Of a stretch of 64,000 nt of DNA, positions 33,878 to 50,637 are shown in pieces. A program made the position numbers and the translations under genes. The notes beneath the pieces are model-generated. The model worked only from the letters and a program-made list of their open reading frames with translations. It searched no databases and was not told where the DNA came from. Source of the DNA: Roseococcus suduntuyensis (GTDB taxonomy: Bacteria > Pseudomonadota > Alphaproteobacteria > Acetobacterales > Acetobacteraceae); contig NZ_JACIDJ010000002.1 of the NCBI RefSeq assembly GCF_014196305.1, positions 186,001 through 250,000 on the forward strand, given 5' to 3'. Every line of letters begins with the position of its first letter. Position 1 is the stretch's first letter.

Positions 33878-35572
33878 ATGCACGCCCCGCCCAGCCTTCC
33901 CAAATCCCTGACGGGCATCGAGGGATTTGACGACCTGACCCTGGGCGGCCTGCCGACGGGTCGCCCCTCCATCGTCTGCGGCTCCGCCGGCTGCGGCAAG
34001 ACGCTCTTCGCCACCACCTTCCTGGTGCATGGCGCGCGCGACTACGATGAGCCCGGCGTCTTCGTCTCCTTCGAGGAACGGCCGGCCGACATCATCGCCA
34101 ACGTGGCCTCGCTGGGCTTCGACATGGACCGCCTCATCGCCGAGGAAAAGCTGGCGATGGAGCACATCGCCATCAACCCCGCGGAGCTCGCGGAAATCGG
34201 CGACTATGATCTCGAAGGCCTCTTCCTGCGGCTGGAGCTGGCCATTGACGCGGTGGGGGCCAGGCGTGTCGTCCTCGACACCATCGAGAGCCTGTTTTCC
34301 GCCTTCACGAACCAGGCGGTGCTGCGGGCGGAGCTGCGGCGCCTGTTCGACTGGCTGAAGGACCGCGGGCTGACCACCGTCATCACCGCCGAGCGCGGCG
34401 ATGGCACGCTGACGCGGCAGGGGCTGGAGGAATACGTCTCGGATTGCGTGATCCTGCTGGACCATCGCGTGCACAACCAGATCTCCACACGGCGCATGCG
34501 GATCGTGAAGTATCGCGGCACCGCGCATGGGACGAATGAATACCCCTTCCTGATCGACCGCGACGGGTTCTCGGTGCTGCCGGTCGGCTCCCTTGGCCTG
34601 AACCACCAGGTCTTCGAGGAACGGATCGCCTCGGGCGTCGTGGACCTGGATGCGATGATCCAGGGCGGGGGGTTCCACCGCGCCTCCTCCATCCTGGTCT
34701 CGGGCGTGGCGGGGGCGGGGAAATCCTCCCTGGCGGCCAGCTTCCTGCATGCCGCCGCCGCGCGCGGCGAACGCGCGATCTACTTCTCCTTCGAGGAGGC
34801 GGAGCGGCAGATCGTCCGCAACATGCGCTCCATCGGGCTCGACCTGGAGCCCTTCCTCGCACAGGGCCTCATCCGCTTCATCTCCGCGCGGCCCACCTTC
34901 TACAGCCTGGAGATGCACCTCGCGATCATGCTGCGCGAGGTGCAGAAATTCCGGCCGCAGCTGGTGGTGCTGGACCCCATCTCCGCCTTCATGGAAAGCG
35001 GCGACCCGTTGGAGGTGCAGTCCATGCTCCTGCGGATGGTGGACTTCCTCAAGAGCAGCGGCATCACCGGCGTCTTCACCCACCTGATGCACACCCAGGG
35101 CGGCGACTACGCCACGGATGTCGGGCTGTCCTCCCTGATGGATGGCTGGGTGCTGATGCTCAACCGAGAGGTCGGTGGGGAGTTCAACCGGGAACTCTAT
35201 CTGCTCAAGGCGCGGGGAACCGCGCATTCGAACCAGGTGCGCGAATTCGTGATGAACGACCAGGGCATCCAGCTGCTGCCACCCTATCTGGGCGAGGGCG
35301 GCGCCGTCACCGGCTCCACGCGCCGTGCCGAAGAGGCACGCACGCGCCGCGCCGCGGCCGAGCGTGCGGCTCAGTTGGAGCGCGCGCGCATCCAGATCGA
35401 CATCCGCCGCCGCAAGGCGGCCGCGCAGATCGAGGCCCTGCAGGCCGAGCTTGCGGGATATGAGGCGGAGATGGCGAGCGCCGCTTCCGCCGAGACCGAA
35501 TACCAGCGACGGGCGGCGGATGATGCCGCCGTCATGCAGATGAGTCGCCGCGGCGACGGGAAGACGACATGA
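33878..35572 (+). CDS. kaiC: KaiC-type circadian clock ATPase/autokinase
   Basis: The 564-residue RecA-fold protein has two KaiC domains. CI has Walker A GSAGCGKT (35-42) and catalytic Glu66-Glu67. CII has Walker A GVAGAGKS (276-283) and Glu306-Glu307. In cyanobacterial KaiC the CII phosphorylation sites are adjacent Ser431-Thr432; the matching stretch here reads GLSSLMDG with Ser418-Ser419, so two serines occupy that place. After about residue 480 comes an Ala/Arg/Glu-rich, probably coiled-coil tail instead of the cyanobacterial KaiA-binding tail. The ATG at 33878 follows a GGATGGA site. It is coupled to kaiB and a histidine kinase by 4-nt overlaps; no kaiA is present. Confidence 0.93.
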
Positions 35573-35856
35573 ACGACACGCCGCAACCCAGGAAGCTGAC
35601 CCTCTACGTGGCCGGCCAGACCCCGAAATCCATCGCGGCCATCGCCAACCTCAAGGCGATCGTGGCGGGCCCCCTGGCCGGACAATACGAGATCGAGGTC
35701 ATTGACCTGCGGCAGAACCCGAAGCTCGCGAAGGAGCACAGCATCGTCGCCATCCCGACCCTGGTGCGGGAATTGCCGGTGCCCATCCGCAAGGTGATCG
35801 GCGACCTCTCCGACGTGGAGAAGGTGCTGGTGGCGCTGAAGGTGCAGGGCGAATGA
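35569..35856 (+). CDS. kaiB: Circadian clock protein KaiB
   Basis: The 95-residue thioredoxin-like protein has [44 protein letters not shown] and VEKVLVAL, which match KaiB along its full length apart from the acidic cyanobacterial C-tail. KaiB switches fold and binds the CI ring of KaiC, lowering its phosphorylation. It overlaps kaiC upstream and the kinase gene downstream by ATGA, implying a joint output module. Confidence 0.94.
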
Positions 35857-37307
35857 ACCTCGACGAAGTGGCCGAGCTTCGCCGGCGCCTCGCCGAGGCG
35901 GAAGAGACCCTGCGTGCCATCCGCGACGGGGATGTGGACGCGCTGGTGGTGGAACAGCAGAACGTCTCGCAGGTCTTCGACATCGGTGGCGGTGCCGAGG
36001 CCTATCACGTCTTCATGGAGGCGATGCATGTGGGTGCCGCCGCCATCGACGGCACGGGGCGCATCCTCTACGCCAATGCGCGGCTGACCTCGGTCCTGGG
36101 CTTCACACAGAATTCCGTGCAAGGCAGCCGCTTCACCGACATCGCGCCCGAAGAGGTGGCCGCGGCGGTGGAGCGGATCATGCCGCGCGCCGCCCTCGGC
36201 GTGGCCTCGGAGGAGGTGGGCTTCGACCGGCTGGGCGAGCAGGTCCACTACATCCTGACCGCCACGCCCCTGCGCCTCTCCACCACCCATGGCTTCGCCA
36301 TCACCTTCACCGACGTGTCCGAGCGCGTGCGCGCGGAAGCGGCCGAGCAGAGCGAGCGCGCGGCGCATGCGGTGATCGCCTCCGCCAACGAGGCGGTGGT
36401 CGTCTGCGACCGCGAGGGCGTGATCACCCACGCCAATGCGGCGGCCGAGCTCTCCTTCGGCGGCGATCTTCTGGGCCTGCCCTTCGCGGACGCCATTCCC
36501 CTCATCTTCCCCGATGCCACCGGCCTGCTCCAGGCCGAGGACATCGTGCGGATGGTGGTGGACGGCGCCTCGGTGCAGGGGGTGGAGGCGCATGCGCCCA
36601 AGGCACCGAAGGTGAAGGACTACCTGGTCAGCGCGGCCCCCCTGCAGGTGGGCCATGACATGATCAATGGCTGCGTCATCACCATGGTGGACCTGTCGCA
36701 GCGCAAGGCCGCCGAAAAGCAGCAATTGCTGATGATGCGCGAGCTGGACCACCGGGTGAAGAACACCCTGGCCCTGGTGCTCTCCATCGCGAGCCGCACG
36801 CTGCACCACGAGGACACGCTGGAGGGCTTCCAGCAGGCCTTCACCGGTCGCATCCATGCCTTGGCCGCGACGCACAGCCTGCTGGCCGAGAATTCCTGGA
36901 CCAACCTCACCATCGGCGATGTGGTCCGCAGCGAGCTGGCGCCCTACACGGCGGGCGCGGCGGGGCGCTTCACCATCCAGGACCTCGGCAAGTCACTGGC
37001 GCCGCGCGCGGCCATCGCGCTCGGCCTGGTCATTCACGAACTCGCCACCAATGCCACGAAGTATGGCTCCCTGTCGGTGCCCGGGGGGAAGCTTTCCGTC
37101 CGCGGCCGGGCGGAGGAGGAGCGCTTCATCGTGGAGTGGCGCGAAAGCGGCGGCCCGCCCGTCACGCCGCCCACCCACCGGGGCTTCGGCCAGACGGTGA
37201 TCACGCGCAGCCTGCAATATACGCCCTCGGGCGGGGCGGAGGTGGATTTCGCCCCGGAGGGGCTGGTCTGCCGTATCTCCCTGCCGCTCGAGGATCTGCA
37301 CGAATAG
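35853..37307 (+). CDS. PAS-domain HWE-family histidine kinase, KaiBC-linked
   Basis: The 484-residue protein has no membrane helix. An N-terminal coiled coil ([20 protein letters not shown]) is followed by two PAS domains (about 50-160 and 165-290). The dimerisation box [14 protein letters not shown] has the phospho-accepting His300. The ATPase domain has N-box [12 protein letters not shown] (Asn400) and WRE at 429-431, the Trp-x-Glu that with the His box defines HWE kinases. No response regulator lies next to it, so the partner is elsewhere. Overlap with kaiB suggests it reads or relays the KaiBC state, by analogy with SasA/CikA; that is inference. Confidence 0.9.
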
Positions 37308-50560: not shown

Positions 50561-50637
50561 TGGCGCGCCCTGGTGGATTCGAACCACCGGCCTGAAGCTT
50601 AGAAGGCTCCTGCTCTATCCAACTGAGCTAAGGGCGC
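50561..50637 (-). tRNA. tRNA-Arg, anticodon UCU
   Basis: Read on the minus strand from 50637, the acceptor arms GCGCCCT and AGGGCGC pair perfectly. The D arm is GCTC/GAGC, the anticodon stem GGAGC/GCTTC (one G-T pair) with loop CTTCTAA giving anticodon TCT, and the T arm GGTGG-TTCGAAT-CCACC. The discriminator is G and the CCA end is encoded (50561-50563). It reads AGA codons, rare in a genome this GC-rich. The sequence just beyond its 3' end (about 50520-50560) is AT-rich. Confidence 0.96.

Follow-up and report, generated by a model that had tools for sequence, protein, structure and literature searches.

A kaiB-linked N-terminal segment and its possible role in the kaiC-kaiB-kinase operon of Roseococcus suduntuyensis

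How does a KaiBC pair deliver its state to the cell without KaiA or SasA? The question is raised by an operon in Roseococcus suduntuyensis (RefSeq assembly GCF_014196305.1, contig NZ_JACIDJ010000002.1, positions 186,001 to 250,000 of the forward strand; we call this whole stretch of 64,000 nucleotides the window, and number positions from its first letter). Three genes follow one another on the plus strand: kaiC (33878..35572; 564 amino acids), kaiB (35569..35856; 95 amino acids) and a gene for a PAS-PAS-HWE sensor kinase (35853..37307; 484 amino acids). They are joined by two 4-nt ATGA overlaps, one between kaiC and kaiB (35569..35572) and one between kaiB and the kinase gene (35853..35856). 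A preliminary description drawn from the letters of the window had proposed this arrangement and had guessed that the host belongs to the Acetobacteraceae; the coordinates and both junctions agree with it, and the host, a Roseococcus, is of that family. We consider it somewhat better than an even chance that the three genes form a KaiBC signalling cassette in which the HWE kinase is a dedicated reader, acting through an N-terminal module.

A segment linked to kaiB

The kinases encoded behind kaiB, whatever their catalytic type, open with about 50 common residues ahead of the first PAS domain (PAS1). In the window this module covers residues 1-51 (35853..36005), for which the structure model predicts a helix and, at low confidence, a strand pair. 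Its consensus (26 letters not shown, then ...VFTL) has conserved positions that run beyond the helix into GEVDALVV. Nothing in Pfam matches the module at E ≤ 1, no solved structure resembles it convincingly (best E 0.08 among PDB profile matches), and we found no description of it in the full-text literature searched, motif words included, with figures, supplements and most subscription papers outside the scope of that search.

The rest of the protein is a PAS/HWE kinase, as had been proposed: HWE_HK scores 87.4 bits (cut-off 22.8) and there are two PAS stretches. PAS1 covers residues 57-160 (36021..36332; Pfam) and the second PAS domain about residues 178-281 (36384..36695; second Pfam PAS stretch, limits from the model). 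The HWE_HK domain (residues 297-376; 36741..36980; Pfam and motif) holds the box HRVKN with His300, and the motif WRE lies within the ATP-binding catalytic region (about residues 380-478; 36990..37286), whose approximate limits come from alignment to the B. abortus LOV-HK kinase 5epv. The HRxxN box and the WxE motif are what we take to be the hallmarks of HWE histidine kinases. The kinase is identical to its counterpart in Rhodobacter (Cereibacter) sphaeroides KD131 at 248 of 470 aligned positions (52.8%), and its dN/dS against Roseococcus thiosulfatophilus is 0.06. An AlphaFold2 model (34 sequences, mean pLDDT 83, pTM 0.56) gives the order helix (3-24), strand pair (30-43, pLDDT blocks 47-54), PAS, PAS, kinase. 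The modelled strand pair should not be relied on; a flexible linker would look like this, and so would a segment that folds upon meeting its partner. A fold search with the model returned, among the matches listed, mostly PAS, LOV, phytochrome and kinase structures and none specific to the module.

Cassettes of this kind are not peculiar to the window. From 53 loci fetched by KaiC similarity we set aside two archaeal ones (L083, L084; L numbers denote loci and G numbers genomes), and two of the remaining 51 (L051, L079) end right at kaiB, which leaves 49 for counting. A relative of the kinase stands behind kaiB in 42 of the 49, and the co-occurrence with kaiBC expected in relatives thus holds; the other seven are six cyanobacterial loci of one clade (L069-L074) and L081. 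The order kaiC-kaiB-kinase is not due to chance. The 4-nt overlap between kaiB and the kinase gene is seen in 27 of the 42 loci, a count that we do not use and a conserved trait that we do not claim, because our script chose the start codon nearest to that spacing. In many cassettes outside the window's clade a tandem kaiB pair precedes the module protein (L066, L068, L075-L078, L080, L123, L125-L131, L133, L135, L141, L144, L146). In a one-contig congener (L136, G175:C1, 4779-6229) the kaiBC-linked kinase is split by a 1-base shift, which may be a real loss or a sequencing error.

Is the module confined to the neighborhood of kaiB? We surveyed genomes with two profiles, A1 (24 N-terminal segments without PAS) for samples of the host's family and phylum, and A2 (34 segments) for the genomes of named loci and for the Myxococcota and Cyanobacteria, the phyla of a Nannocystis and a Laspinema. 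In the first look of the four open surveys no more than 34, 19, 24 and 18 candidates, respectively, were scored for any one genome, and some surveyed genomes may be species of the profile-building loci (G044, for example, is the species of L032). Among 200 Acetobacteraceae genomes there are 16 matches in 15 genomes, all of them among the 17 that have KaiB (P0002 at E ≤ 1e-5); KaiB is present in two of the three other Roseococcus genomes of this sample. In the two KaiB genomes that have no module match (G172, G195) KaiB is divergent (30 bits) and KaiC scores 291 and 312 bits. The phylum sample gives matches in 10 of 349 genomes, nine of them strong (the window's included) and each adjoining kaiB, and KaiB by PF07689 in 37 genomes. 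In the five that we inspected of the 28 KaiB genomes with no strong match (G357, G337, G217, G299, G247), and in a second locus of G143, kaiB lies before kaiC, and KaiC scores 288-335 bits.

The A2 searches give a similar picture. For 25 named loci, 19 of the genomes have exactly one module match, located at kaiBC. In the Myxococcota 8 of 282 genomes match; four matches, including a pre-selected one, are strong, and all of these lie at kaiBC. The other four (G751, G718, G807, G736; E 5e-5 to 7e-4) are weak and partial, have no kaiB or kaiC nearby, and are treated as background. In the Cyanobacteria there are 16 strong matches in 15 of 386 genomes, and 15 of the 16 lie behind kaiB. Counting each place once, with the window's own in and the pre-selected Nannocystis out, a same-strand kaiB ends 5-448 nt before the module match in 42 of 43 strong open-survey places. 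Fisher tests of the association between module and KaiB give 9e-21 (family) and 7e-10 (phylum), values that are descriptive since related genomes are not independent. The host genome, with one KaiB, one NepR and nine HWE_HK matches, has a single module match despite its nine HWE kinases. The linkage of the module to kaiB is near-exclusive, and in that sense near-diagnostic. A tblastn search of the N-terminus against plasmids returned nothing at E 0.01; this blank is a failure of sensitivity and not evidence, because the collection includes the R. sphaeroides kaiC plasmids and the KD131 kinase has the module.

One segment on several effectors

Output classes were assigned by Pfam for 25 module proteins and the window's kinase; for other module proteins the class rests on the H box or on alignments. 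The module is found on HWE_HK proteins (window, L082, L123, L126), on HisKA and/or HATPase_c proteins, which often have a receiver as well (L061, L066, L068, L075, L077, L080, L125, L131-L134, L142, L144, L202-L204, L206), on an HTH_8-bearing sigma-54 activator from Smithella (L078) and on a GGDEF-EAL protein (L147). The L143 protein has no recognised output domain, and two weak module matches (L148, L207) are left out of these counts. By record titles, tree labels and searches the module occurs in eight phyla: Pseudomonadota, Cyanobacteriota, Myxococcota, Bacteroidota, Actinomycetota, Bdellovibrionota, Planctomycetota and Thermodesulfobacteriota, the last being presumably the phylum of Smithella. 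The module is better conserved than the PAS domain after it: between output classes its mean identity is 46.5%, against 27.2% and 21.5% for the two halves of PAS1 (20 proteins, 114 pairs).

Could the segment be no more than a helix for dimerisation or signalling, belonging to a single kinase lineage that accompanies kaiBC, and make no contact with Kai proteins? A helix is predicted at residues 3-24, the weak PDB profile matches include several coiled-coil proteins, and shared descent with kaiBC would yield linkage without contact. However, the module persists on unrelated effectors and surpasses the neighboring PAS domain in conservation; none of the remaining HWE kinases in the host genome matches it; and conservation does not stop at the end of the helix. 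We regard this explanation as doubtful.

The same range of effectors bears on the direction of the signal. The kinase might instead be an input device that passes redox or oxygen signals from its PAS domains to KaiBC; two PAS domains do stand ahead of the kinase, and an input role has been suggested for R. sphaeroides (PMC5520375, PMC10931921). But the same module is carried by a GGDEF-EAL protein, a cyclic-di-GMP enzyme, and by a DNA-binding sigma-54 activator with HTH_8, and an activator of this kind makes it hard to read the module as a KaiC input. The poor conservation of PAS1 would also be unexpected for a single conserved input. An input role thus appears distinctly unlikely, and less likely than a reader role. 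The earlier proposal of the kinase as an output candidate gains from the range of effectors that share the N-terminal segment. Most likely the kinase reads KaiBC through its module, and the best reading of the module is that of an adaptor, predicted to bind, by which the KaiBC state reaches the effector.

To which part of KaiBC might the adaptor bind? The end of KaiC is readable in 64 module-bearing loci, and in 62 of them 81-100 residues follow the core. The two others (L077, L080) have 21 residues and none and still keep the module, while six cyanobacterial loci have the tail and no module; the coiled-coil tail is neither required nor sufficient, and we reject a tie between the two. Since the module is kept in two loci whose KaiC has no coiled-coil tail, a docking site would more likely be on KaiB or the KaiC core than on the tail.

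Two cases of loss are also informative. In G306 (L122/L148, G306:C3) a short frame combines the start of KaiC with the end of KaiB, and just behind it lies a weak half-match of the module that lacks the GEVDALVV part; the downstream PAS-GAF-HD protein frame is still open. This locus is a decayed kaiBC cassette with an eroded module. In L081, a Syntrophaceae metagenome-assembled contig, the start of KaiC runs into the end of KaiB in one frame (719-1699), a whole kaiB follows, and there is no module in the 2 kb behind it. Both cases, one of them on such a contig, fit what one would expect of a module that serves KaiBC.

KaiC, KaiB and a proposed route of the signal

The preliminary description held that KaiC keeps both Walker A motifs and both catalytic Glu pairs and that KaiB is full length, and the details agree with it. 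The Walker A motifs start at residues 35 and 276, and the EE pairs are at 66-67 and 306-307. Pfam KaiC scores 350.9 bits over two stretches: the best marks the CI ATPase domain (residues 12-235; 33911..34582) and the second the CII kinase/phosphatase domain (about residues 248-478; 34619..35311, limits approximate). NCBIfam PRK09302 scores 729 bits, and the best PDB match is R. sphaeroides KaiC (8dba, 909 bits), in an alignment that runs through the C-terminal coiled coil. Identity to the KD131 protein (locus L183) is 415 of 563 aligned positions (73.7%), and R. thiosulfatophilus KaiC is 95% identical to that of the window. Two further PF06745 matches in the host genome are weaker (42.5 and 29.3 bits). 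In the KD131 alignment the SS phosphosites S418/S419 (35129..35134) correspond to S413/S414 of R. sphaeroides, and 86 residues beyond residue 478 (35312..35569) align with its dodecamer-forming coiled-coil tail; the double-domain KaiC of the window, with its two serines and a C-terminal extension of the kind (about 50 residues) expected of KaiC2, is by sequence of the KaiC2 type. Residues S413/S414, W419, Y436, L438, V449 and R450 of the published R. sphaeroides allosteric network are identical in the window, and position 421, Val in the paper, is Leu in both the window and KD131 sequences.

KaiB scores 83.6 bits in Pfam (cut-off 27) over residues 12-91, and its residues 7-93 match the solved KaiB chain 8fwj_M, the best PDB match; 67 of 89 aligned positions (75.3%) are identical to the KD131 KaiB, for which a complex has been solved, and the NCBIfam KaiB equivalog models match without reaching their cut-offs (88.7 bits against 110 and 88.0 against 145.3). 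The KaiBC assignment is well supported by this similarity to R. sphaeroides KaiC and KaiB, which function without KaiA. R. sphaeroides KaiC is reported to autophosphorylate independently of KaiA and to form a dodecamer through its tail, and KaiB to bind the ADP-bound CI ring, with ATP/ADP resetting the system (PMC10076222). By analogy, KaiA-independent autophosphorylation and ATPase activity may be expected of the window KaiC, and the dodecameric state, the binding of a fold-switched KaiB to CI and ATP/ADP resetting would carry over by homology.

Where did the operon come from? We built a quick KaiC tree of 71 rows from 83 window and locus rows, dropping six near-duplicates (L032, L040, L044, L058, L059, L063) and seven that are broken, short or without KaiC (L065, L067, L078, L081, L123, L128, L148) and adding R. 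sphaeroides KD131; L083 and L084 were left out. The window and its congener G175 cluster with three Devosia and Rhodovulum sp. PH10 (SH-aLRT 99), away from other Acetobacteraceae, and this grouping suggests that the Roseococcus kaiC was acquired horizontally. Forcing the 13 Acetobacteraceae rows into one clade is rejected (p-AU 8e-67); holding together the three rows of this family that lie in the main HWE part gives p 0.031. KaiC relatives (E ≤ 1e-100) also occur on 13 plasmid records of Cereibacter, Rhizobium, Sinorhizobium, Falsirhodobacter and Pararhizobium; two of these records are typed as conjugative. All three plasmid regions opened (L183, L184, L185) hold the complete cassette, which can therefore travel on plasmids.

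It is tempting to propose a route for the signal. The KaiC, forming a dodecamer as its homology predicts, would autophosphorylate its SS pair without KaiA, and KaiB would bind the ADP state and bring about dephosphorylation. The phosphorylation and KaiB-binding state of KaiC would then report the duration or strength of a high ATP/ADP ratio, as an hourglass or energy switch of the kind that R. sphaeroides suggests. The kinase module would dock on KaiB, KaiC or their complex and gate the kinase through PAS1. HWE kinases commonly feed the general stress response, and the kinase would phosphorylate an unlinked response regulator, plausibly of that response. No adjacent response regulator is present in the window within the stretch scanned. 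Same-strand receiver frames start at most 1.2 kb past the HWE kinase in L039, L045 and L128 and overlap its end in L123 and L126; most of the remaining HWE loci whose sequence continues past the kinase show no neighboring receiver frame, and an unlinked regulator would therefore be needed. The NepR of the host and its two Photo_RC (pufL/pufM-type) genes count toward a reader kinase in a KaiBC cassette.

Would such a cassette keep daily time? It might be an energy or stress switch without daily timing that feeds the general stress response. HWE kinases are linked to that response and NepR is present in the host; the R. sphaeroides system follows the ATP/ADP ratio, and KaiC of Legionella and Pseudomonas has been linked to stress (PMC11832031). 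On the other hand, the pufLM homologues make light-driven ATP/ADP cycles plausible, and Rhodopseudomonas palustris kaiC is reported to give adaptive fitness under rhythmic conditions (PMC4794148, PMC5520375). We give the switch a substantial chance, falling a little short of even.

Several points tell against a kinase that reads KaiBC through its module. Six cyanobacterial genomes with kaiC-kaiB have no module match anywhere (A2). One strong match lies apart from kaiBC: L202 (G1225:C195, 7941-10871), a cyanobacterial HisKA kinase for which the 12.5 kb fetched contain neither kaiB nor kaiC. Overall there are five weaker partial matches, four of them without any kaiB or kaiC. The profiles were built from kaiB-linked proteins, so that remote unlinked relatives could escape them, and negatives in PAS-rich genomes are not exhaustive given the candidate limit. 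Within the genus, G124 has neither KaiB nor module, and the kinase of G175 is frameshifted. The confidence of the module's strand pair is low. No stress-sigma or sigma-70 promoter was seen upstream of kaiC; the EcfG-like pattern, tried with one spacing, has fewer matches in the window than in shuffles. Finally, the counts suggest more than one swap between HWE and HisKA outputs, but tests on the KaiC tree reject neither a single HWE-output clade (p-AU 0.249) nor a single HisKA clade against HWE (0.208), and we do not claim repeated swaps.

We put at about even the chances of a broader proposition: the module of about 50 residues may be a plug-in reader of the KaiBC state, a SasA-independent output interface of KaiC2-type systems in at least eight phyla, with exchangeable effectors, a docking site on KaiB or the KaiC core rather than the tail, and KaiBC as a general timer or energy switch. 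Such a module would be one defined piece for a binding study of how KaiBC delivers its state and a marker by which genomes could be searched for KaiBC output proteins, and it would help to explain output swapping during evolution. Distant from the operon, a tRNA on the minus strand (50564-50637) is the sole Rfam match in the window at gathering thresholds.

Comparison with known systems

The kaiC-kaiB-kinase operon is already known in kind; the part for which we found no published description is the N-terminal module of the kinase. The 2023 structural paper on the R. sphaeroides KaiBC system uses neither "histidine kinase" nor "operon" in its main text. The preliminary description implied a contrast with R. 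palustris, and in this it was wrong: R. palustris and R. sphaeroides are reported to have the same kaiC-kaiB-PAS/HK operon (PMC4794148). According to a 2011 survey (PMC3164672), in almost all kaiC-kaiB clusters outside cyanobacteria kaiC or kaiB is followed directly by a gene for a histidine kinase or a GGDEF/EAL protein. In one photosynthetic Bradyrhizobium, kaiC and kaiB are reported together with a PAS kinase and a protein of the CheY type (PMC3899966), and R. rubrum is reported to have PAS kinases beside both of its kaiBC clusters (PMC10931921).

Among known systems, R. sphaeroides KaiBC (8DBA, 8FWI, 8FWJ) shares with the window its gene order, SS sites, coiled-coil tail and N-terminal kinase module, and in KD131 the third gene is annotated as an HWE kinase. 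The KD131 genes lie on a plasmid and are 2 and 5 nt apart as annotated, whereas those of the window overlap by ATGA. R. palustris, likened here by its published gene order, has the same three-gene operon, for which its authors propose a single promoter (PMC4794148). Cyanobacterial SasA, likewise a histidine kinase, uses an N-terminal domain to read KaiC. That sensor domain is KaiB-like, whereas the window module, of about 50 amino acids, has no Pfam match, and the window kinase gives no KaiB match at E ≤ 1; SasA homologues outside cyanobacteria have been reported to be without the KaiB-like domain. A further parallel is the kaiC-Nt_HK pair of Ramlibacter, in which a conserved N-terminal kinase segment (RtaNt) has been proposed as a KaiC interaction module (PMC3164672). 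That group is described as having no kaiB, and RtaNt was compared with receiver, SasA and KaiB domains (PMC3164672); set beside it by description, the window module is a segment that stands behind kaiB.

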